Below, in pieces: positions 1-11,998 of a stretch of 47,184 nucleotides of DNA. The notes under the pieces were generated by a model. That model was given only the letters and a program-made list of their open reading frames with translations. It did no database searches and was not told the DNA's origin. The stretch comes from Clostridium sp. (lineage in GTDB: Bacteria > Bacillota > Clostridia > Clostridiales > Clostridiaceae): assembly GCA_031292145.1 (NCBI GenBank), contig JARLHR010000008.1, positions 1 through 47,184 of the forward strand. The letters run 5' to 3'. How positions within the stretch are numbered: the first letter of the stretch is position 1; each line of letters opens with the position of its first letter. A program made the position numbers and the translations under genes.

Positions 1-5
1 GCTGT

Positions 6-100
6 TAAAGGTTCTTAGTTGTAGGTTGTTCCACTTTAGCTTGTCACACTGAAAGTGGGAGCAAGCTAAAGTGGGTACAACCTGCAACTTAGAACCTTTA
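6..100. repeat. Long imperfect foldback downstream of the dynamin operon
   Basis: Arms of about 38 nt (6-43 and 62-100) pair with a few mismatches around an 18-nt loop. The inner arms TTTAGCTTG / CAAGCTAAA are perfect. It follows the last gene of the leftward dynamin cluster. On the minus strand there is no T-run after it, so it is not a classical terminator. It may be a MITE-like element or an RNA-stabilising 3' hairpin. No second copy was seen in this window. Confidence 0.6.
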
Positions 101-192
101 GCTACATTTTCATAGTCTTTCGAAATAAAAATATTTATGATTTCGGTAATTTATCACATAAGTCTAGATTTCACGTTGTTTACATACAGAGT

Positions 193-1974
193 TTATTTTT
201 TTAGATTTATAAGTAAACATTTATTCAATAAAAAGTCTATCTCTGTTTTGAGTCTATTTAATTCTTCTGAACTTATGCTTTCTAAGTCATTTTTACTATG
301 ATTAAATTCTTCCTCTAAATCTTTAAATAAAGCTTGTATTTCTTCTTCATTAGCTTCCTTCATTTCCTCTAAGTATTTCCTAACAGTACCTTCAATATTA
401 TTAGCCCAGGTATCTATAGCACTCATTGATATTTCATTAATTTTGTTCTGCCAAGTTAAAGAATCATATAAGAAGAATATTGAATCTGTAAACACGTTTA
501 AAGATTCAGTGATCCCCTTTAATGAGGAAGCTTTTATTGTTTTTAATAAGTGATTTAAATTATTACTGTTCTCCCCAAGTGCTGATCTTTCAAATGTATT
601 TGCAAGTTTCTTTAGGTTTTGGCTTGATATCAGCCCTTTTTCAGCTTTTCTAAACATTTCTCCCGTAGCTTGTCTTACAATATCTCCTCTGTGTTTTTCC
701 AATATTCCTTGTAAAACTTCAGTATATAATGGGATATTATTTTTAACTTTTTCTTCTAATTTAATAATTTCTGAATTTAATATATTTTCAATTTCTCTAT
801 CTAAACTAATAATTTCATCTTCTATATAAGAATTTAAATTCTCAGTTTCTTCATTTGTAAGCTTTGGTACATAATAATGCTGCATTAGAGCAAAGGTTTC
901 TTCCTTAGCTGTCCATTTACTTTCATCATATGTATATTTTGTAATGTCTTCTTTAATTTTTATGTCAAATTTGCTTATAAGCCTTATGGATTTTAATTTT
1001 ATTTTTACAAAACCATTCTCTATAGCTTCTAGAATACTTTCTTTTCGATCTAGGAATTCCTTTATTATATTTATTTTTTCTCCTGTGTTTTCTTTGGTTG
1101 ACTCTAGTTCTGCAATCTTAGAACTAATTTTTATATCGCATTCACGTAATACATAGTCTTGATAGCTTTTCAAAACTTGTGCAAGTTCTTCTTTTTTATT
1201 TGGATCATTAACTTTTTCATAAATGTAATCCCAAAGCTTATCTGTTACAGGATTTTTTTCACTGCTGCTTTCAATCAGAAATAGTTTGATATCTTTATGA
1301 AGACATTCATCAACACTTTTTTTTATTTCAGAAATTCTTTTATTATCCTCATTAGTATCTTGTGGACACATATTTATAGCTAAAACAACTTCCACATTGT
1401 TATTTATAATTTCTCCAACATATTTTAAGAATTGAAAATCATCCTCTCCAATTCCAGTTCTATAAGAAACAACATAAACAATGATATCACTTTCTGGTAT
1501 AAAATCCTTTAAAACTTCTTCATGCTTATCAATAAGGGAACCATATCCCGGCGTATCAAAAAGTCTTATTCCACTGTATTTTTCATTTTTACTCTTTCCA
1601 ATATATCTTAATCTATTCAAATTATCGTTAGGTTTTACTGTAAGAGCTGCGAATTTTTCGTCATCAATGCTTTCAATAGTGAAATCATCATTAATTGCCA
1701 TTAAAGCTTCCTCTGAATTCTCATCAATTACAACTTCTGTAACAACTCCTGTTGTTGGCCTAACACTTTCCACTAATATCTTTTTATCAAATATACTATT
1801 TATCAAAGCACTTTTCCCCGAGCTTGTTTCACCCAGCATAACAACGTAATGACTTGGATTGATTATTCTATCTTTTATTAATAAATTTTTTGCTACAATA
1901 TCATTACTTTCAAGAATATCAACAACCTTATCAATTCTCTTTTGCCTATCTACACAGCTTTTAAAAATATCCAT
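193..1974 (-). CDS. Dynamin-like GTPase (593 aa)
   Basis: A large GTPase of the bacterial dynamin superfamily. The P-loop GETSSGKS is at residues 48-55, the switch-I threonines (RPTTG) at 72-76 and the G3 motif DTPG at 140-143. The G4 position reads NMCPQD (201-206) instead of NKxD, so base recognition may be relaxed. Residues after about 260 are long helices, as expected for a dynamin stalk, with an amphipathic stretch near 465-515 that could touch membrane. The start codon lies 3 nt after the stop of the upstream gene. Its Shine-Dalgarno AAGGAG is inside the last codons of that gene, so the two are probably translationally coupled. Family assignment is firm at the level of dynamin-type GTPase. 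Function (membrane remodelling, stress or phage defence) is inference. Confidence 0.85.
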   Translation of the reverse strand: MDIFKSCVDRQKRIDKVVDILESNDIVAKNLLIKDRIINPSHYVVMLGETSSGKSALINSIFDKKILVESVRPTTGVVTEVVIDENSEEALMAINDDFTIESIDDEKFAALTVKPNDNLNRLRYIGKSKNEKYSGIRLFDTPGYGSLIDKHEEVLKDFIPESDIIVYVVSYRTGIGEDDFQFLKYVGEIINNNVEVVLAINMCPQDTNEDNKRISEIKKSVDECLHKDIKLFLIESSSEKNPVTDKLWDYIYEKVNDPNKKEELAQVLKSYQDYVLRECDIKISSKIAELESTKENTGEKINIIKEFLDRKESILEAIENGFVKIKLKSIRLISKFDIKIKEDITKYTYDESKWTAKEETFALMQHYYVPKLTNEETENLNSYIEDEIISLDREIENILNSEIIKLEEKVKNNIPLYTEVLQGILEKHRGDIVRQATGEMFRKAEKGLISSQNLKKLANTFERSALGENSNNLNHLLKTIKASSLKGITESLNVFTDSIFFLYDSLTWQNKINEISMSAIDTWANNIEGTVRKYLEEMKEANEEEIQALFKDLEEEFNHSKNDLESISSEELNRLKTEIDFLLNKCLLINLKK

Positions 1975-1977
1975 ATA

Positions 1978-3744
1978 TTATTTCTCCTTGCATTCTTCAA
2001 TTAAATTCCTTAATGTTTTCAAGTCCTCTTCAAATTCCAAAACATGTTCATGATTATAGTTAACTTCATATGCCTTTTCTATATTCTGCATGTCTTCCTT
2101 AAAAGTCTTTTCTAAATTAACCTTTAATTCTTTAATTGAATCATCAACTTCTTGTTGCTTTGCCATCAAGTCACCAATAATTTCTTCTTTTAAATATTTT
2201 TCCAAATCTTCTATCATTGGTTCTAAATCTTTTAATGTATAGCTTGCCCTATTTTTAACAATCTTTTTTCGCATATGATTTCCTATTAAAGAAAACGTTA
2301 AGCTTATTCCCATTCCCACAAGAATTCCAGCTGGACCAAGAACACCTACTGCTCCAACAGTTCCAATTAAACCAGTGGATACTCCAAGTACTGTAGGAAT
2401 TGATTTTTCATATTTAATTGAACTTTTTTTATTAAAAAATGATATATTTTCATAGGTACCATTAAACCCTTTTATTTTTATATCGTTAAGTTCATTATTA
2501 AGATTCTTTATAAGAATACCAATGTTCACTAAAATTTGCTCCATTATGTCATTTATTGCTTTATCAGAAGTTTCCTTATATATTAAACTAAGTCTATTTC
2601 CATCTACTATTCCCTTATTAATAATTCTTCTTAATTCTATTCTCAAATTCTCCATATTTTCTTTTATTATTTTAGAAGAGTTTTCTATAATATTTTCCAT
2701 TTCCTCTTCTGCATAAGCCCTACAACTTCTTATTCGAGCTTTATTTTCTGAAAGCATAGTTTTAATTTTATTTATCTTTTCTTCTTTTTCCATCATATTT
2801 TGATTATCTTCATTTAAAGCTAAAAGTCTATATGCTTCTATTTTATCATTAATATTTTTTAGAGCTTCATATATTCTTTCCTTTAAAGTTTTGATTAAAT
2901 CTTCATTGTATTCTTTCGAAATATTTTTTATTTCTTCTACAACCTTAATTATTCCAGAGTTATTATAGGCTATTTCATCTTTAGTAAATTTCCCTTTAAC
3001 AGCTTCATAAACATTTACTATATTAACCTTTATATCTCTTTCTTCATTATGTGCATAACTTATGCTGCTTAATACTCCTTCATTATGCTCTTTTGCTTCA
3101 TTGGCATCTTCTAAGCTTTCATCATTCCACTTATTTTGAACAAAAAGCGTATTAGAAAGTTTTGGCCATAAAGCATTTATGAAGTTTTTTTCTGATCTTG
3201 TTATTGGAGGATTTGTTCTAATTAAGAAAATTCCTGCTACCAACTTATTTACATATTCTAATGTGGTTTTTTGATTTTCAGGTGTTAAGCTTCCAACCCC
3301 GGGTAAATCTACAAGAACAATATTATCTTTTAAGACTTCACTTTGATTATGTAATACTATTTTAGCTACTTTAAGAGTATTTCCCATATTAAAATCATTA
3401 TGAACATATTTTTGTAACTGATTAATGTATATATTTTCTTTACTTCCATTTAAATAATATACTATAGCTTCATTAATATTTTCACCATATTTCACCTCAA
3501 CAGGTACGCAGGTTGTCTCATCAACATCCGTAGGCAATATGTTATCTTCCATTAAAATAGAATTTAAAAAACTGCTTTTACCAGCCCCTTGAATTCCTAG
3601 TACTGGTACTATTATTTCTTTTTTATTTAAATTTTCAATAAAGTGATTAAAATACTCTTTATAATTTATCCCTTGATTATCATTAAGATATTTTTCTAAT
3701 AATTTATAAAATCTCTCATCTTCAATTAAATTCATGTATGTCAT
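1978..3744 (-). CDS. Dynamin-like GTPase with hydrophobic hairpin (588 aa)
   Basis: This is the second dynamin-type GTPase of the cluster. G1 is GIQGAGKS at residues 50-57, the switch threonines are in DETTC (75-79), G3 is DLPG at 146-149, and G4 is a complete NKWN at 204-207. Long helical segments follow. A glycine-rich, strongly hydrophobic stretch at about 450-488 then gives way to a basic HMRKK sequence. Bacterial dynamins such as BDLP and the Leo proteins carry a membrane paddle of this kind, so direct membrane insertion is likely. The gene is 5 nt downstream of the coiled-coil gene and 3 nt upstream of the next GTPase gene. The G-domain is more canonical than that of its downstream neighbour. 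Pairs of unlike dynamins often act as hetero-oligomers, which is inferred here from the coupling. Confidence 0.85.
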   Translation of the reverse strand: MTYMNLIEDERFYKLLEKYLNDNQGINYKEYFNHFIENLNKKEIIVPVLGIQGAGKSSFLNSILMEDNILPTDVDETTCVPVEVKYGENINEAIVYYLNGSKENIYINQLQKYVHNDFNMGNTLKVAKIVLHNQSEVLKDNIVLVDLPGVGSLTPENQKTTLEYVNKLVAGIFLIRTNPPITRSEKNFINALWPKLSNTLFVQNKWNDESLEDANEAKEHNEGVLSSISYAHNEERDIKVNIVNVYEAVKGKFTKDEIAYNNSGIIKVVEEIKNISKEYNEDLIKTLKERIYEALKNINDKIEAYRLLALNEDNQNMMEKEEKINKIKTMLSENKARIRSCRAYAEEEMENIIENSSKIIKENMENLRIELRRIINKGIVDGNRLSLIYKETSDKAINDIMEQILVNIGILIKNLNNELNDIKIKGFNGTYENISFFNKKSSIKYEKSIPTVLGVSTGLIGTVGAVGVLGPAGILVGMGISLTFSLIGNHMRKKIVKNRASYTLKDLEPMIEDLEKYLKEEIIGDLMAKQQEVDDSIKELKVNLEKTFKEDMQNIEKAYEVNYNHEHVLEFEEDLKTLRNLIEECKEK

Positions 3745-3749
3745 TCTTT

Positions 3750-4445
3750 TTATCTCCTTTTTCCAAAAATCCTAGCGAAAAATGACTTATTTCCCCATTC
3801 TACCTCATCTTGCACATTTTCTATCTTTTCATTAAGATTATTCTCTAATTTGCTTATTAGTTCTATTAATATATCCTTATCTTCAATTTTATCATCAATA
3901 TTTTTAATTTTTTCTAAAATAAAATTATTGCCACTAACTAAATTATTTTTAATTGATTTTTCTAACTGCTCAGCTCTATTTCCAATAGAATTTTCTAATG
4001 ATTCTACCTTTTCTTCAACCTTATCAAGATTTATATTTTCTATCTTACTTAAAATAGCCTCTTTATTACCTGCTGCATCCTTCACTACCTTAAGCCCTAA
4101 AATTGCTAATCTCTCTTCTATAGATTGAAATAATATTTTATTTTGCTCCGCTAAGCTTTTATTTATAGCAGCTTCTATGGTACTTTCCATAGATTTTGTT
4201 ATATTTAATATGCTATTATTCAAATCTTCAATTTTTTCCTCAAACTCATCTTCTTGAAATTCTTGAAGATTCCCCTTTAAATCATTAATTTTCTTTTCAA
4301 TTGGTTTTAACTTTTCAATTACTTCTTCCGACATATTTCTAGAAACCTTAGAAAGTGCAATTGTCATATCCTCTTGAATTTCACTCATTATATTTTTTGT
4401 AACTTCGTCACTTTGAATTAAAATTGATTTTTCTTCCACAATCAT
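3750..4445 (-). CDS. Coiled-coil protein of the dynamin cluster (231 aa)
   Basis: I do not recognise a named family. The protein is almost entirely charged helix (Glu/Lys/Asn-rich heptads from about 15 to 215). It ends in EWGNKSFFARIFGKRR, a short aromatic and basic tail that could anchor it to membrane or to a partner. No signal peptide, enzyme motif or cysteine cluster is visible. It lies directly upstream of two dynamin genes with a 5-nt gap, so it is probably an adaptor, comparable in position to the small helical partner in Leo-type dynamin operons (inference). The AAAGGAG ribosome site sits only 1 nt from the annotated ATG. A GTG two codons downstream (4437-4439) has better spacing and may be the real start. 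Confidence 0.75.
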   Translation of the reverse strand: MIVEEKSILIQSDEVTKNIMSEIQEDMTIALSKVSRNMSEEVIEKLKPIEKKINDLKGNLQEFQEDEFEEKIEDLNNSILNITKSMESTIEAAINKSLAEQNKILFQSIEERLAILGLKVVKDAAGNKEAILSKIENINLDKVEEKVESLENSIGNRAEQLEKSIKNNLVSGNNFILEKIKNIDDKIEDKDILIELISKLENNLNEKIENVQDEVEWGNKSFFARIFGKRR

Positions 4446-4461
4446 ACTCCTTTACTCTTTA

Positions 4462-4481
4462 TAATTGACATTAGTCAATTA
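4462..4481. promoter_or_regulatory. Palindrome TAATTGAC-ATTA-GTCAATTA, possible operator/promoter
   Basis: A perfect 8-bp inverted repeat with a 4-nt spacer sits in the 54-nt gap between the 836-aa GTPase gene and the coiled-coil gene. On the minus strand it lies between TTCATT and TATAAA spaced 17 nt apart. That would be an internal promoter, although the resulting leader would be very short. It is a candidate regulator site, not proven. Confidence 0.35.
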
Positions 4482-4499
4482 ATGAATATATTATTTTTT

Positions 4500-6998
4500 T
4501 CATGTCCTATTTAAAAAGTGGCTTAAAATTGCTTCTAAGGTTTCCTTTTCCTCTGCACCTCTTGATAAAGGATTTTTAAATAACTTTTCTTTTAAAATTT
4601 TATAATCACTGATTATAAATTCATTTTTCTTCTGACCTTCTATTAATGCCATATTGTATATTGGATTTTTAGAATTAATTAGTAAATATTCAATATTAAC
4701 ATTGTAAAATCTATTCTTAAGGTTATTTTTTAAGCTCTTCACCTCTAGTAAAAGTTCTCCTATATTATTAGCATTTATAAACTCCCTGCAGGAATCTATT
4801 ACTAAATTCACCATAATACTTTCATTATCTTTAAAGAAATAACTTAAAATTCTGCTTTCTAAAATCTGCTTTTTTGAATTTCCTATTTGTATTCCATTAA
4901 ATATAATGAACATGTTATAAATTTTATCTTTTATTAATTTTATCTTTGCATAAAACTCAAGCTTATTCGTACATAATTCATAAACAATCACCATATTATT
5001 AATGCTATATATGCCTTCTTTTTGAATTACTTCACATTCCTGCGCTTTTAAATAAACACCATGTGTCCTAAAAACAAATTCTTTGCAAGAATCTATATCC
5101 CAAGTCCAAAAAAGTTCTAAGGTATCAGACTTCATCTTTTCTATACTCTTTTGCCTTATATATTTTCCAATCAACAAATAATTTTGCTCTAATACTTTGT
5201 TACTTAACATATAACGGTTATATTGTCCTTTTGAAATAGAATACAATACTCTTTGCTCATAATAATCGCTTGTTACTGCTAATTCCTTATCTTCTTCAAT
5301 TTTAAACTCCCCAAGTATATCCTTAACCGCCGCTAAACTCTTACTTACATCTTCTATATCGAAAAGTTCTATATTCTGTTTCTTCTTTTCTTCATATTCT
5401 TCTGATCGTTTTTTTACTTCATCATAAAAAATACTTATAGATTTATTGTATTGATTGCTCCATTCTTTTAATACGTTAACATATCTTATTTTATTTTGAT
5501 TACATATATCTCTAGCCGTTTGTATTGTAGCATCTTTATCTACTATTTTTTCATCATAACCTACTTCTTTATATCCCCATTCCCTATCTAATAAGTTAGA
5601 TAATAATCTTTTCCCTTTATTTAATACCCCTTCCTTTTTAAATAACATAGTTCTTTCTTCATACTTATGTTTAATTTCTATATTTTTACTTTCAATGCTA
5701 GGCAAAGCATAAGAAAATCTTATATCCAAGTTAAGCTTTTTATATATTTTCTCCTTATTCTTTTCACACTGTTTAACTATATTTAAAATATCACTTTCAA
5801 TATATAATTTTCTATTGTTAATTTTATCTACTATACTTAAATAATCTTCAAAATTCTCTGATGTTGAAGATGTAATTTCGCTTATTGTATCTGAAATTAC
5901 TCCTTCAATAGTTTCAATTTCTAATACAATTTTTTTCTGAGCATTTTGAAATGCCTCTACAAGTTCATCAATATCTCTAATTTTCACATTTATTAAAGCC
6001 TCTATTGTTTCTAATTCATTTCCCTTTATTATTTCTTTATCAGTAGTAATTATATTATTAATCTTATCACTAATGCTTATTGCTCTTTGTTTATCAATTT
6101 GGGGAATAGTTTTTTCTGTGCAAGCATCTACAGCTTTTATAAAGGCTTCAACGTTAGATTTCTTATACAGCTCTTCATCCTCACCCAAAATTCCATTTAA
6201 CCCGTTAAGAGCCGATATTTGAATAACCTCAAAATTATCTTTTCCTTGAGTAGCTTCCCTTAAAAGATTCTCCGCCCTCTTTTTGTGTTTTTTCAAAATA
6301 GTAGACTTATCTTCTTCCACAATTCCATTCTTACCAATTTTCTCTTCGACCGAATCAATCATATTTTGTACTAGAATTACTTGCTTTTCTTTTTCATCTA
6401 CTATTTTAATCTTTTCAGCATTTGTTCTATCACTGTTAGCTTTAACTGTGGTTACAAATATACAAACATCTATTGTTGGAAGTAATATTTCTAGAGTTAA
6501 TTTTTCATGATTTTCTAAATTCCAGGCATCAAGCCCTGGACTATCTATTATATGTATATTTTCACCCAATATAAAATTAGGAGTAGTAATATGAATTTGA
6601 GTAACATTTAATTCATTATTAGGATTTTTATTCTCATCCGCATATTTACTTATAGTATCCTCATTTAAATTATCTTCTTTTAATATTTGTGGTTCTTTAT
6701 CTTTAAAATAAATAGTAGCCTCTCTAAGTTCTCCCTTAGAAGCTGTGATTATAATACTAGAGCTTGGTCTTATAGCCATAGGTAAAATCTTCTCACCTAA
6801 AAGTGCATTTACCAAGGTTGATTTTCCACTACTTGTAACCCCCATAATAGCAACTCTTATAATATTATTCTTAAAAATACCTCTTCTTTCTTCAAACCAC
6901 TCTATATCTTTATTGTATCTCTTTTTTCTATATTCATTTTTTTCTAAAATCTTCTTTATTTCATCAATTGTATTTAACATATAACTTTTTTTCATCAT
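4500..6998 (-). CDS. Large dynamin-like GTPase (about 832 aa)
   Basis: This is the first and largest gene of the cluster. In the numbering of the longest frame, G1 is GVTSSGKS (57-64), the switch-I serines are PSSSI (82-86), G3 is DSPG (156-159) and G4 is a divergent NMID (216-219). The G-domain is followed by about 500 residues of charged helix and a C-terminal mixed region. No clear transmembrane segment is seen. The longest frame begins at 7010, but that ATG has no ribosome site. A GGAG lies inside the first codons, 6 nt before the ATG at 6996-6998 and 9 nt before the next ATG (6993-6995), so I start at 6998. Family is dynamin/GTPase and biological role is unknown. The G4 motif resembles that of the 593-aa protein more than that of the 588-aa one. 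Confidence 0.82.
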   Translation of the reverse strand: MMKKSYMLNTIDEIKKILEKNEYRKKRYNKDIEWFEERRGIFKNNIIRVAIMGVTSSGKSTLVNALLGEKILPMAIRPSSSIIITASKGELREATIYFKDKEPQILKEDNLNEDTISKYADENKNPNNELNVTQIHITTPNFILGENIHIIDSPGLDAWNLENHEKLTLEILLPTIDVCIFVTTVKANSDRTNAEKIKIVDEKEKQVILVQNMIDSVEEKIGKNGIVEEDKSTILKKHKKRAENLLREATQGKDNFEVIQISALNGLNGILGEDEELYKKSNVEAFIKAVDACTEKTIPQIDKQRAISISDKINNIITTDKEIIKGNELETIEALINVKIRDIDELVEAFQNAQKKIVLEIETIEGVISDTISEITSSTSENFEDYLSIVDKINNRKLYIESDILNIVKQCEKNKEKIYKKLNLDIRFSYALPSIESKNIEIKHKYEERTMLFKKEGVLNKGKRLLSNLLDREWGYKEVGYDEKIVDKDATIQTARDICNQNKIRYVNVLKEWSNQYNKSISIFYDEVKKRSEEYEEKKKQNIELFDIEDVSKSLAAVKDILGEFKIEEDKELAVTSDYYEQRVLYSISKGQYNRYMLSNKVLEQNYLLIGKYIRQKSIEKMKSDTLELFWTWDIDSCKEFVFRTHGVYLKAQECEVIQKEGIYSINNMVIVYELCTNKLEFYAKIKLIKDKIYNMFIIFNGIQIGNSKKQILESRILSYFFKDNESIMVNLVIDSCREFINANNIGELLLEVKSLKNNLKNRFYNVNIEYLLINSKNPIYNMALIEGQKKNEFIISDYKILKEKLFKNPLSRGAEEKETLEAILSHFLNRT

Positions 6999-7010
6999 AA
7001 AATTCTCCAT

Positions 7011-7521: not shown

Positions 7522-7582
7522 TAAGGCACAATAAAAAAATAACAATTCCATCTGCCAAGCCTATTTTCTTTTATGTGCCTAA
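7522..7582. repeat. Small foldback repeat, copy 1
   Basis: Terminal inverted repeats TTAGGCACA-type are seen (TAAGGCACAATAAAAAAATA at the left, TATTTTCTTTTATGTGCCTA at the right) around a short centre containing TCCATCTGCCA. The centre matches the right outer arm of the composite element at 43430-43676. It lies upstream of the amylase operator. Confidence 0.7.
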
Positions 7583-7715
7583 TCAAAAGTTTCGGAGTTA
7601 TGCCTTAGGGTATTTAAATCTTTTATTATTTGATGTTCATTAAAAATCCTAATGCTTCTCAAATAAATAATTAATCCGTAATGAAAGGAGGATAGTACAT
7701 TTATAAAACTTTACA

Positions 7716-7744
7716 CAAACGTTTGCGAAAATGCAAACGTTTGC
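7716..7744 (+). promoter_or_regulatory. Double operator of the amylase gene (LacI/CcpA type)
   Basis: Two copies of the palindrome CAAACGTTTGC (7716-7726 and 7734-7744) lie 7 nt apart, 33-60 nt before the amylase start. The central AACGTT is typical of LacI-family operators. The second copy in its context fits the catabolite-responsive-element consensus at about 14 of 16 positions. This is expected for carbon-source control by CcpA or by a maltose/starch LacI regulator. Which protein binds cannot be read from the sequence. Confidence 0.7.
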
Positions 7745-7776
7745 CTGAAAAAAAACTATATGGGAGTGTGTGTTAA

Positions 7777-10062
7777 ATGAAAAAAAAATTAATATCCAAA
7801 TTAGTTATCACAACTTTATTTATTAACTTGACCCTTTGTCAATTTCCCGAATTAAACTTTTTCAATACTTCATCAACAGTAGCCTATGCTGCCAACATTA
7901 CTAGTTTACCATCTAGCACCAAAGATGGAACTATACTTCATGCTTTTGATTGGTCCTTTAATACTATCAAAAACGAATTACCAAATATTGCAGCTGCTGG
8001 TTATAAATCAGTTCAAGTTTCTCCAGTTCAAGGAACTAAAGATTCCTCCACAGACCCAAGTAAATGGTGGCTTTTATATCAGCCAACTAATCAAGCTATT
8101 GGAAATGCACAACTTGGAACTTATGCTGATTTCAATGCCCTTTGTACTGAAGCACATAATTATGGAATTTCCATTATCGTTGATGTAGTAATGAATCATA
8201 TGGCTAACAACGGAAATCCAGATCAATTAGATCCTTCAGTAGATTCTAGTTTTCAAAATACTAATTACTATCATAACTTAGGCCAATGTAGCAATTGGAG
8301 TAACAGACACGATATAACCCAGTTAGGCATTGGTATGCCAGATTTAAATACTCAAAATCCTGACGTGCAAAATAAAGCAATTACATTTTTAAATCAATGC
8401 GTAGATGCTGGTGCTGATGGTTTCCGTTTCGATGCAGCCAAGCATATTGAAACTAATTTAGGTTTAGATGCCAATCAATCCTGGGCAGGTAATTACTGGA
8501 CTAATGTTTTAGGAAATTTACACAATAAATCAAACCTATTTATATACGGTGAAATTTTACAAGATGGAAATGTAGATAATATTTCATCTTATGAATCCTT
8601 CATGAATGTAACAGCTAGTAATTTAGGATATAGTATAAGAAATGCAGTTACTTCTAACAATCTAAGTTCAGTTGACACTACTCTTGGCGGAGTCGATTCC
8701 GGTAAAGCTGTAGATTTTGTTGAAACCCATGATACTTATGAAGATGGTACAACTAAAAGCTTAACAGATACACAAAGAAAAATGGGATGGGCTATAGCTG
8801 CTGCCCGTGCAAGTGCGACACCTCTATTTTTTGATAGACCTACTAGTTCAATTGGTACTGAAGGAGATTCATTATGGAAAGATTCAGATATAGTTGCAAT
8901 TAATAAATTTCATAATGCAATGGCCGGACAAACCGAATATTTAAGGTGGACAAATAACAATTCAACTATGTTAATTGATCGTGGCACTATTGGAACTGTT
9001 ATTGTAAATGATGGTTCAAGCACCTATATTAATTCTGCTACTAATTTAGCAAATGGAACATATACTAATCAGGGCAGTGCAAATTGTACTTTAACTGTTT
9101 CAAATGGAACAATTTCTGGAACTATTCCTACAAATTCTATTGTTGTTCTTTATGGTAATTCAATTCCAACTGATGCAGTTTCATGGACACCTTCAACGCC
9201 AGTTGCTGGTAATACTGTAACAATAACTTATAATGCTGCTAGCAGAGTACTCCAAAATTCTTCCAGCATAAATGTACATTGGGGATATGATGGGTTTACA
9301 GGTGTTACTAATACCTCTATGACTTCCGCAGGAAACAATACATGGACAGCTACTTTAACAGTACCAACAGCAGCTAAATCTAAATTAGATTTATGTTTTA
9401 CTGACGGTACAAATTGGGATAATAATAGTTCAGCAAATTGGAGTATTCCTATAACAGCAAGTTCAACTACAAATGTAACTTATGCCCCACATTCTGGTTA
9501 CAAAGTAGACTATGATAGCAGTACCCTTGTTCAAGGAAAAAGCTTTACTATATACTACAATGGCTCTTTAGCTAGTTCTAGCAATGTTTCTCTTCATTGG
9601 GGCTATAACGGTTGGACAAGTTCAACTAATGTTTCCATGACTAAGGATTCTAACGGTTTCTGGAAAGGTACTATAACTATTCCAACTTCTGCAACAAAAT
9701 TAGACTTTGATTTCACTGCTGGCAGCAGCTGGGATAATAATAGTAGTCAAGATTGGCACTTACCAGTATGGTCAAGTTCAGCACCTGTACAAGTCTCTCC
9801 AGGACCAACAGCTGGTAAAGATGTTACTGTTTATTATAATGGAAGCTTAGCATCTAGTGCTACTTCTATAACATTACATTGGGGCTATAACAATTTCACT
9901 TCTCCTGCTGATATAACCATGACTAAACAATCAGATGGAACATGGGCCTCTACTATTACATTACCATCTGGAAGCTATATGCTTAATATGTGCTTTAAAA
10001 ATAATTCAGGCACTTGGGATAATAATAGTTCTAACAATTATAATTTTTCTGTAGCACAGTAA
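7777..10062 (+). CDS. Secreted alpha-amylase, GH13 with three CBM25 modules
   Basis: An extracellular starch-degrading enzyme of 761 aa that hydrolyses alpha-1,4-glucan. A signal peptide (KKK start, hydrophobic core, cut near VAYAA, residue 38-39) is followed by a GH13 domain. The four GH13 signatures are visible: DVVMNH (136-141), GFRFDAAKH with nucleophile Asp219, IYGEI with acid/base Glu259, and FVETHD with Asp319. After about residue 465 come three repeats of about 95 aa (467-560, 572-664, 671-761), each with HWGY...W...DNNSS, as in starch-binding CBM25. It resembles the bacillary AmyE-type single-polypeptide enzymes in the catalytic half. The ribosome site GGGAG precedes the ATG by 10 nt. 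The double operator upstream implies catabolite or starch control. Monocistronic. Confidence 0.95.
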   Translation: MKKKLISKLVITTLFINLTLCQFPELNFFNTSSTVAYAANITSLPSSTKDGTILHAFDWSFNTIKNELPNIAAAGYKSVQVSPVQGTKDSSTDPSKWWLLYQPTNQAIGNAQLGTYADFNALCTEAHNYGISIIVDVVMNHMANNGNPDQLDPSVDSSFQNTNYYHNLGQCSNWSNRHDITQLGIGMPDLNTQNPDVQNKAITFLNQCVDAGADGFRFDAAKHIETNLGLDANQSWAGNYWTNVLGNLHNKSNLFIYGEILQDGNVDNISSYESFMNVTASNLGYSIRNAVTSNNLSSVDTTLGGVDSGKAVDFVETHDTYEDGTTKSLTDTQRKMGWAIAAARASATPLFFDRPTSSIGTEGDSLWKDSDIVAINKFHNAMAGQTEYLRWTNNNSTMLIDRGTIGTVIVNDGSSTYINSATNLANGTYTNQGSANCTLTVSNGTISGTIPTNSIVVLYGNSIPTDAVSWTPSTPVAGNTVTITYNAASRVLQNSSSINVHWGYDGFTGVTNTSMTSAGNNTWTATLTVPTAAKSKLDLCFTDGTNWDNNSSANWSIPITASSTTNVTYAPHSGYKVDYDSSTLVQGKSFTIYYNGSLASSSNVSLHWGYNGWTSSTNVSMTKDSNGFWKGTITIPTSATKLDFDFTAGSSWDNNSSQDWHLPVWSSSAPVQVSPGPTAGKDVTVYYNGSLASSATSITLHWGYNNFTSPADITMTKQSDGTWASTITLPSGSYMLNMCFKNNSGTWDNNSSNNYNFSVAQ

Positions 10063-10213: not shown

Positions 10214-10420
10214 TCTATTAAGCTTATCATTAATCTGGTATGCTAACTACATTAAATCCTTTATCTTTTATTTCATGTTCTGTAATATTGAAACTTCTCA
10301 ATTTGTGAATAATTAGTATTTATACTTTGAAAAAGTAAATAGTTTTTATGTTTTTATTGTTGAATTATTGAAGTTTACTGTATAATGGACTTATACTTAA
10401 TTTTATAAGGAGTGTTTTTA

Positions 10421-11302
10421 TTGTTTGGATATGTAACTCCCTTAAAGGCAGAAATGAAAATTAAAGACTGGGCTAGATTTAAATGCTATTATTGTGGATT
10501 GTGCTGCCATATAAAAAAAGAATTTGGTAATATACCAAGAATGTCTTTAAATTATGATATGACTTTTCTTGGATTATTATTAGATGCATTAAATCCAGAA
10601 GAAATAAAAGTGTTAAAACATAGATGTGTCCTTCACCCAACTGAAAAGAAGACTGTAATAGCCAATAATAAAGCTTTATCCTATGCCGCTGCCATGAATA
10701 TATCCTTATTTTATTATAAATTATTAGATGATGTTCAAGATGATAAAAATATTAAAAGTACATTACTTTCAATGCTTTTGTTACCATATAAAAGGAAATT
10801 TTCATCCTCTATAACTGTAATTAATGATAGCATAAGCCAATATTTAAACAAGCTTTCAATTTTAGAAAATAGTAAATCTTTTTCTTCTATAGATGAAATA
10901 TGCGATCCCTTTAGTTCCTTAGTAGGTATAATTATGCGTGATTATCCATATGAATTAAATGATGATTGTCCTGAATTAAGAAATACTTTATATAATTTAG
11001 GATATTCTATTGGTAAATGGATTTATTTGATTGATGCATTAGATGATTTAAAGTCTGATATTGAAAAAAAGAAGTTCAATCCTTTAGCTTTTTTATATAA
11101 TAAGGAATCTTTATCTTATGATGAGTTTATTGAATTAATAAAGCCTAAAATGGAATTTACTATTTTAAATTGTGGATATACTTGCAGAGAAAACTTAGAA
11201 AAATTGAATCTTGCAAGAAATAAGGATATACTATATAACATAATTGAATTAGGTTTAATGGATAAATACATTAATATTATTCAGGCACAATCAAAAAAAT
11301 AA
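10421..11302 (+). CDS. DUF5685 family protein (293 aa)
   Basis: A member of a clostridial family of unknown function. The N-terminus MFGYVTPLKAEMK, followed by CYYCGLCC (residues 22-29), is the family hallmark. It also has two aspartate-rich helices, LLDDVQDD (about residues 103-110) and IDALDDLKSD (about 213-222). I read these as similar to the paired metal-binding motifs of all-alpha isoprenoid-synthase folds, which is inference. I chose the TTG at 10421, 8 nt after AAGGAG. The GTG at 10412 overlaps that ribosome site and would add residues the family lacks. The last codons and the TAA stop fall inside a foldback repeat (11283-11343), so the C-terminal AQSKK is repeat-encoded. The next gene encodes a J-domain protein. 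Confidence 0.75.
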   Translation: MFGYVTPLKAEMKIKDWARFKCYYCGLCCHIKKEFGNIPRMSLNYDMTFLGLLLDALNPEEIKVLKHRCVLHPTEKKTVIANNKALSYAAAMNISLFYYKLLDDVQDDKNIKSTLLSMLLLPYKRKFSSSITVINDSISQYLNKLSILENSKSFSSIDEICDPFSSLVGIIMRDYPYELNDDCPELRNTLYNLGYSIGKWIYLIDALDDLKSDIEKKKFNPLAFLYNKESLSYDEFIELIKPKMEFTILNCGYTCRENLEKLNLARNKDILYNIIELGLMDKYINIIQAQSKK

Positions 11303-11343
11303 TAGACCAGTATGCTTATCTATTTTTTTCTTTCATGTGCCTA
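11283..11343. repeat. Small foldback repeat, copy 2, overlapping a gene end
   Basis: AGGCACAATCAAAAAAATAATAG at the left pairs with CTATTTTTTTCTTTCATGTGCCT at the right around a centre ACCAGTATGCTTAT. The left arm contains the last five codons and the stop codon of the DUF5685 gene. The hairpin with its T-run may also act as that gene's terminator. Confidence 0.75.
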
Positions 11344-11389
11344 ATGCATATTCCCAAAATACAAATGAAACTAAAAGGAGAGATTAATA

Positions 11390-11998
11390 ATGAATCCATA
11401 TGAAGTATTAGGTGTAAAACCTGGTGCAAGCCAAGACGAAATAAAAAGTGCTTATAGAAAGCTTATTAAGCAATATCATCCAGATAAATTTATAGATAAT
11501 CCGCTAAAAAATTTGGCTGAAGAAAAAATGGCTGAAATCAATAAAGCTTATGAGGAACTAACAAAAAATCCAAATAATAATGCCTATAATTACGGTGGTT
11601 CTAACAATTCATCTAATTATGGCAATTCTTCAAACAACTATTCTTCTTATGATTTTCAAGAAATAAGAAGCTTTATTCAATCTGGAAATTATATTGCTGC
11701 TGAAAGCAGATTAAATTCAATTAACAATAGAAATGCAGAATGGCATTATTTAAATGGTATGGTACTACTTAATAAAGGTTGGTATGATGCTGCCCTTAAC
11801 GAAATCACTGCAGCTGTTAATATGGATCCAAATAACTTTGAATATAGACAAGGTTTAAATTCCCTAAGACAAAGGGGAAACAACTACTCTAACCCTTATT
11901 ACAGAACTACAAATACAAGAAATTCTGATATGTGTGATTGCTGTATACAACTATGGTGTTTAGAGACCCTATGTGACTGTGCAGGTGGTGGCTGCTAA
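11390..11998 (+). CDS. J-domain protein with Cys-rich tail (202 aa)
   Basis: An Hsp70 co-chaperone-like protein. The J-domain occupies residues 1-65 with HPD at 30-32, the motif that stimulates DnaK ATPase. An Asn/Ser/Gly/Tyr linker (about 65-90) follows, then a segment that looks like a TPR-type helical repeat ([19 protein letters not shown]). The tail, after about residue 180, carries DMCDCC...[13 protein letters not shown] with eight cysteines. There are no canonical DnaJ zinc repeats (CxxCxGxG), so this is not DnaJ itself. The tail could bind metal or be lipidated. AAGGAGAG lies 8 nt before the ATG. It is 88 nt downstream of the DUF5685 gene with a repeat between them. Confidence 0.85.

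Follow-up and report, generated by a model that had tools for sequence, protein, structure and literature searches.

A leftward operon at positions 193-6998 of a Clostridium sp. contig (JARLHR010000008.1, analyzed over its whole length of 47,184 nucleotides (nt) and called the window below) encodes three dissimilar dynamin-like GTPases, here named D1, D2, and D3, together with a coiled-coil protein, CC. Sequence comparisons indicate that these genes are inherited together and constitute a genuine system of three dynamins and a coiled-coil adaptor. We further propose, with confidence evenly balanced between right and wrong, that the products form a single hetero-oligomeric, membrane-acting dynamin complex that remodels membranes and probably acts against phages, and that the operon is the four-gene form of a six-gene system. 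The window is the entire contig C13 of a 6.34-Mb source genome in 282 contigs, and the list of open reading frames (ORFs) places D3, CC, D2, and D1 in this order on the minus strand (lengths in amino acids, aa):

4500..6998, minus strand: D3, dynamin-like GTPase of 832 aa, the operon's first gene, with an extra C-terminal domain
3750..4445, minus strand: CC, coiled-coil protein of 231 aa with two conserved ends
1978..3744, minus strand: D2, dynamin-like GTPase of 588 aa, nearest in sequence to BDLP and mitofusin
193..1974, minus strand: D1, dynamin-like GTPase of 593 aa, the operon's last gene

The original prediction, made from the letters of the window, had described three unlike dynamins and a coiled-coil protein in one cluster, with gaps of 3-5 nt among the last three genes. 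Both the ORFs and the matches to the Pfam family Dynamin_N bear this description out: CC and D2 are separated by 5 nt, D2 and D1 by 3 nt, and D3 and CC by 54 nt. The family cut-off of 27 bits was passed by D1 (69 bits, E = 6.5e-19), D2 (79 bits, 5.6e-22), and D3 (74.5 bits, 1.3e-20), with one Dynamin_N stretch in each of the three separate ORFs, and all three have the long helical neck and trunk expected after the G domain in the dynamin superfamily. The P-loop and DxPG were retained, and none of the three has the canonical (T/N)KxD G4 motif, which is typical of the superfamily and not strictly defining. In the source genome they were the sole strong Dynamin_N matches among nine match rows, the other six scoring at most 24 bits each in frames of 315-536 aa. 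From its first ATG the D3 frame spans 4500-7010 (836 aa). The predicted length of about 832 aa is nevertheless likelier, because a GGAG lies 6 nt ahead of the internal ATG at 6998 and the corresponding M5 is invariant across 12 aligned D3 proteins. NG86 dN/dS values against one close relative, locus L035, were 0.138 for D1, 0.100 for D2, 0.117 for CC, and 0.145 for D3, so that, as measured against this relative, purifying selection acts on each of the four, which argues that the cluster is not a product of chance. Promoter-like sites in the promoter scan did not exceed those in shuffled sequences (43 vs 52.9).

The operon is conserved as a unit within the genus. Of 68 genus genomes, 22 contain D2 at E ≤ 1e-10 (with at least 240 bits in 21), and a search of 206 family genomes with D3 at 1e-15 returned 24 genomes, namely the same 21, two of other genera (G104 and G175), and G073, whose match is an unlike dynamin of 66 bits. 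The order D3-CC-D2-D1 was kept in 19 of the 20 genus loci read around D2, the contig of the remaining one (L052) beginning inside CC. All four genes were present even in L054, although its dynamins are only about 28-32% identical. The four genes thus form a conserved unit, both here and in 20 distant loci described below, and the original prediction does not fail for want of synteny in relatives. That unrelated dynamin genes had merely come together in one genome is a virtually negligible explanation, with nothing in its favor and refuted by the order conserved across phyla and by correlated distances among the families.

We scanned species genomes with the D2 alignment, choosing candidates by two short peptide patterns; for this reason the scan is an undercount. 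It confirmed 39 loci among 308 candidates: 12 belong to the window's clade, 20 are distant, three (L105, L109, and L112) are truncated at contig ends, and four are planctomycete. The planctomycete loci (L119, L125, L126, and L127) hold a lone D2-like dynamin that groups inside D2, with no D1 or D3 match within the DNA examined. The 20 distant loci have D3, D2, and D1 in that order, the first two separated by a CC-like protein, which in L113, L115, and L118 was found only by reading the gap in all frames; D3 of L101 and D2 of L124 are incomplete. They span six phyla as ranked in the records: Bacillota, Bacteroidota, Pseudomonadota, Spirochaetota (Brachyspira), Synergistota, and Myxococcota. Further copies occur on a Paenibacillus plasmid (L130) and in G175 (L085, where D3 is split across two frames at 7543-9979 and neighbors resemble site-specific recombinases by their N-termini). 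Each of ten genomes or records re-searched with D2 contained a single copy, and the system is rare outside the window's clade.

In the distant form, D1 is followed by S1 and S2, both small and helical, which gives the order D3-CC-D2-D1-S1-S2. S1 has 130-162 aa, and S2 mostly 103-119 aa, reaching 286 and 304 aa in L103 and L115 and lying within a longer frame in L120. By profile, S1 and S2 were present in 19 of the 20 distant loci (L129 being without) and also in L130 and L085; these matches are partly circular, because most of the loci had supplied sequences for the profiles. The misses are not circular: neither profile matched in 19 window-clade loci or in the window. S1 occurred in 3 of 200 family genomes, precisely those with the six-gene form, of which G175 had stayed outside the profile, and it had no match in the window's own genome, searched singly. 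In L103 and L115, S2 is fused to an LRAT domain (75.2 and 73.5 bits vs a Pfam cut-off of 24.3).

Phylogenetic analysis of the G domains separated the three dynamins. (Here and below, D1-D3 denote families as well as the window's proteins.) In a 91-row tree, D1 (25 rows), D2 (30), and D3 (25) each fell on one side of a branch, with SH-aLRT values of 100, 100, and 99, respectively; the tree, from a quick search without bootstrap, also includes 11 dynamins of other clostridial clusters, which stand apart from the three families. Pairwise distances across 18 loci were correlated between D1 and D2 (r = 0.92), D1 and D3 (0.87), and D2 and D3 (0.91), and those involving S1 and S2 reached r = 0.76-0.87 across 16 loci (p = 0.0001 throughout), all computed without a control for the species tree. 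The trees mix phyla, with a Bacteroidetes locus beside Burkholderia and Bacteroidales loci among Clostridia, which suggests that the whole gene set has moved by transfer.

The following features were located in the proteins:

6354..6365, minus strand: D3 G4 motif NMID; QN[MFK]xD in 29 of 29 aligned D3 proteins
5541..5690, minus strand: D3 stalk tip, about residues 437-486, two predicted strands flanking an amphipathic helix, VLNKGKRLLSNLLD
4503..5138, minus strand: D3 C-terminal alpha/beta domain, about residues 621-832, in all 29 aligned D3 proteins
4353..4421, minus strand: CC N-terminal D-E-x-T motif (SILIQSDEVTKNIMSEIQEDM)
3753..3800, minus strand: CC C-terminal aromatic-basic tail (EWGNKSFFARIFGKRR)
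3121..3135, minus strand: D2 G4 region NKWND, with the Asp displaced by one residue
2281..2397, minus strand: D2 glycine-rich hydrophobic hairpin, about residues 450-488
1363..1374, minus strand: NMCP at the G4 position of D1; all 28 aligned D1 proteins read N-x-x-P

Two non-canonical G4 motifs and a glycine-rich membrane stretch in one GTPase had been noticed from the window alone. The former proved to be family traits and the latter was located in D2. The N-x-x-P of D1 is without the guanine-reading Asp. NMxD or NFxD occurs in 28 of 29 D3 proteins, the other (L113) having NKID, and the D2 family shows QNxW or QNxF with the Asp displaced or missing. We take NKWND of D2 to be a mitofusin-like G4 of the NxW type, and its hairpin to occupy the position of the membrane paddle of BDLP and mitofusin; the D2 G domain matched mitofusins at E of about 1e-11. 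Top structural matches of D1 were mycobacterial IniA and Nostoc BDLP, and the NCBIfam DynA model gave D1 28.1 bits vs a cut-off of 1600. Fold searches with D3 produced matches confined to residues 1-570, with IniA as the best, so that the IniA fold is present in this part. The stalk tip of D3 is a candidate membrane contact. The D3 C-terminal domain had no Pfam family in the window copy and no credible match among PDB sequences (best E = 0.027), and across 29 members three Pfam families were each matched by one member only (best E = 0.0069). This domain was found in 2 of 398 phylum genomes, the window's own included. Its strand-helix order had hinted at a pseudo-GTPase, a candidate that was rejected: compared by profile with the D2 alignment, the domain reached a probability of 0.4, and with D3 it found only itself. 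CC is conserved at both termini as judged from aligned residues. The N-terminal pattern occurred in 31 of 34 CC rows vs 9 of 125 neighbor proteins and the tail pattern in 21 of 34 vs 2 of 125, counts that are descriptive only, as the patterns were devised after viewing the sequences and some rows repeat one protein. In L108 and L111, D-x-T replaces the D-x-x-T of CC.

We examined the neighbors of the 21 distant loci (the 20 plus L130) for links to defence. In Anaerovirgula (L116) the operon is flanked by DrmA, DrmB, and DrmMII of DISARM and by GajA and GajB of Gabija, and individually confirmed PADLOC neighbors include DrmA in L101, TmtA in L114, and PDC-M27C in L117. UvrD helicases matched GajB models in L122 (4.1e-98), L130 (1.6e-45), and L123 (2.8e-27), and L130 also has an annotated abortive-infection protein nearby. 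PADLOC-matched neighbors were thus present in at least 7 of the 21 loci, and the Pfam families common to at least two of the 125 distant neighbors were helicase, AAA, WYL, and GTPase. Batch scans at 1e-15 returned 194 PADLOC families for these 125 neighbors and 80 for 102 control proteins, figures that give no number of distinct members; the controls came from 15 other stretches in nine of these genomes or records, in part from the contig that bears the operon. Among the PADLOC matches listed (25 families), controls mostly matched PD-T4-6 models, presumably kinases, and distant neighbors mostly GajB (UvrD) models. As raw family counts compare poorly, the link to defence rests on the named hallmark neighbors and not on a rate. 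In a paper on YprA and DISARM, the word "dynamin" occurs 0 times in the main text (PMC12458937).

Several observations weigh against an anti-phage complex. Only 15 of the 125 distant neighbors were checked singly, chosen as promising, and 11 of them matched while four did not; the other 14 of the 21 loci have no confirmed defence neighbor. Ordinary metabolic genes, including citrate synthase and glycerate kinase, are among the 125 by Pfam, and the control was not clean, its 102 proteins still matching 80 families. UvrD helicases serve housekeeping too, and these matches are therefore weak evidence. A search of 50,697 phage records gave no match to the operon, 61 IMG/VR candidates yielded no confirmed case, and plasmid carriage was seen in only 1 of 72,556 plasmids. 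Around 19 window-clade loci, 142 neighbors matched only three PADLOC families at 1e-15, namely mad2 (7), mad3 (4), and a GlgB-type model (2), and in this clade the operon appears vertically kept. Finally, membrane action of D1, D3, and CC is presumed from their sequences and from single-chain models.

A rival reading is membrane maintenance, in which the complex would repair or stabilize the inner membrane when it is exposed to solvents, cell-wall antibiotics, pore formers, or osmotic stress, tethering and sealing lesions like DynA or IniA, with any phage effect secondary. Because window-clade neighbors are defence-poor, we regard this as a serious rival, though a less likely one than the anti-phage complex. 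The neighbors of the 19 loci vary, although seven loci share one gene, five share three neighbors, and four share a transporter set (by N-termini we take these to be an alanine racemase, pab-type genes, and transporters, respectively). As they are partly shared between species and defence-poor, the operon looks like an old chromosomal resident of the Clostridium beijerinckii group rather than a defence-island passenger. The purifying selection measured against one relative (dN/dS 0.10-0.15), the IniA-like structure of D3, and the membrane-surveillance role of DynA given in PMC8844932 are also in keeping with maintenance. Outside the clade, however, defence is the better fit to the sporadic spread across phyla (exemplified by the D3 C-terminal domain in 2 of 398 genomes), the phylum-mixing trees, and the DISARM and Gabija neighbors. 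The original prediction of a membrane-remodeling or defence machine thus held in that the genes form a conserved unit distinct from Leo/Eleos, some of whose distant relatives lie in defence islands, while the function itself, in remodeling as in defence, is one that we infer throughout.

If the anti-phage complex is correct, D2 would insert its glycine-rich hairpin into the inner membrane, and D1 and D3 would join it in the assembly as dissimilar partners, each bearing its characteristic non-standard G4 loop; given these loops, nucleotide binding and hydrolysis would probably need cross-partner contacts. CC may be an extensible tether whose D-x-x-T end grips the dynamins and whose aromatic-basic tail grips the membrane, and the D3 C-terminal domain would be the likeliest sensor or docking part. 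S1 and S2 may be accessory subunits with a regulatory role, which in two loci also supply an LRAT-type lipid enzyme. Infection that damages or marks the membrane would lead the complex to assemble there and to clamp, seal, or break the membrane, so that fewer phages are released. The window's clade keeps the core alone, perhaps chiefly for membrane maintenance. More tentatively, and with somewhat less than even confidence, the system may represent a widespread undescribed class of bacterial immunity. In it, three dynamins would form an obligate hetero-complex, tethered by an extensible coiled coil and equipped with exchangeable small subunits able to carry a lipid-modifying effector. The complex would sense infection via the unmatched D3 C-terminal domain and stop phage release by inner-membrane remodeling, and would thereby parallel, in bacteria, the immunity conferred by Mx, GBP, and IRG proteins.

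Known bacterial dynamins act singly, as fusions, or in pairs, and the need for pairing calls for explanation. With its family-specific G4 loops and its own adaptor, a conserved set of three is a natural system for dissecting hetero-oligomerization, and it has representatives in the solvent-producing C. beijerinckii group, among them C. beijerinckii strain HUN142. Should an anti-phage role be true, membrane-remodeling GTPases acting jointly would be an immune principle common to bacteria and animals.

Other features were observed around the operon and elsewhere in the family. The contig begins 193 nt beyond the D1 stop, within a dispersed repeat, and the region downstream of D1 is for this reason visible in relatives and not in the source genome. 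Just downstream of D1 lies a long imperfect palindrome (window 1-110; RNA fold of 1-125, -55.5 kcal/mol, z = -8.8), and this palindromic repeat is probably why the contig ends at window position 1. Among 67 genus genomes it matched in 12, with at least 13 match rows in all but one of these (a palindrome may count on both strands, and few candidates were scored), and its copies in the source genome reach 96% identity. Outside the operon, window 10412-11998 encodes, rightward, a DUF5685 protein and then a DnaJ-TPR protein. Other, unlike three-dynamin clusters occur in Clostridiaceae (L086 6087-15225, L088 6376-12928, and L087 2634-10216) and include a small protein of 137-142 aa; in L086 the third dynamin has MORN repeats, and a zinc-ribbon protein is encoded next. 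L089 (4608-12507) has three large dynamin-like proteins (776, 744, and 746 aa) adjoining a WYL-domain regulator and is perhaps another defence-type cluster.

Among known systems, Eleos (LeoA-LeoBC) is alike in having adjacent unlike bacterial dynamins in one operon, modeled in PADLOC among defence proteins. It differs in having two dynamins (one split in enterotoxigenic Escherichia coli, ETEC), whereas the window's operon has three and CC, with S1 and S2 usually added in distant loci; to our knowledge, Eleos is without CC, S1, S2, and the D3 C-terminal domain. That the operon is an Eleos variant with an extra dynamin is very improbable. The PADLOC LeoBC model weakly touched all three window dynamins (E = 7.1e-6 to 5.9e-12), and LeoA touched D1 of L116 (65.4 bits, 1.3e-18). 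Nevertheless, genuine adjacent LeoA and LeoBC in 67 genus genomes, those of G022 (373 and 335 bits) and G047 (332 and 336 bits), far exceeded the at most 54 bits of operon genes among the matches listed; G022 carries both systems at separate places, and Leo proteins fell outside D1, D2, and D3 in the tree (on long branches, one row very long). Within the tests made, scores, separate loci, and tree position lead us to reject Leo/Eleos membership, and the set is, as predicted, not recognizable as one known system; we found no description of it in titles and abstract beginnings of the open-access literature, and "undescribed" is provisional. According to PMC4159319, ETEC LeoB and LeoC are two halves of one dynamin, so that Leo is a pair and not a triple, and loss of leoA, leoB, or both reduces vesicle-borne protein release. 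Budding of membrane vesicles for release or secretion, as proposed for ETEC Leo, is an unlikely role for the window's dynamins: no secretion family was among the Pfam families shared by the 125 neighbors of the 21 distant loci, and no signal peptide was evident by eye, with no predictor, in D1, D2, D3, or CC. Bacillus subtilis DynA is also a bacterial dynamin, one with a phage-resistance effect of its own (PMC8844932), and is a single fused double dynamin, in contrast to three separate proteins and an adaptor. Campylobacter Cj-DLP1 and DLP2 are unlike, mutually dependent dynamins that tether membranes; they differ in being two proteins coupled via an assembly domain of DLP1 (PMC6104087) and not via a separate coiled-coil protein. 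Mycobacterial IniA and Nostoc BDLP have the fold of D3 residues 1-570 and are top matches of D1 too, while D3 bears an added C-terminal domain. We know of neither with the D3-CC-D2-D1 gene set. Mitofusins resemble D2 in the G domain and the NxW-type G4 region, but are eukaryotic organelle fusogens, and the G4 Asp of D2 is displaced by one residue.

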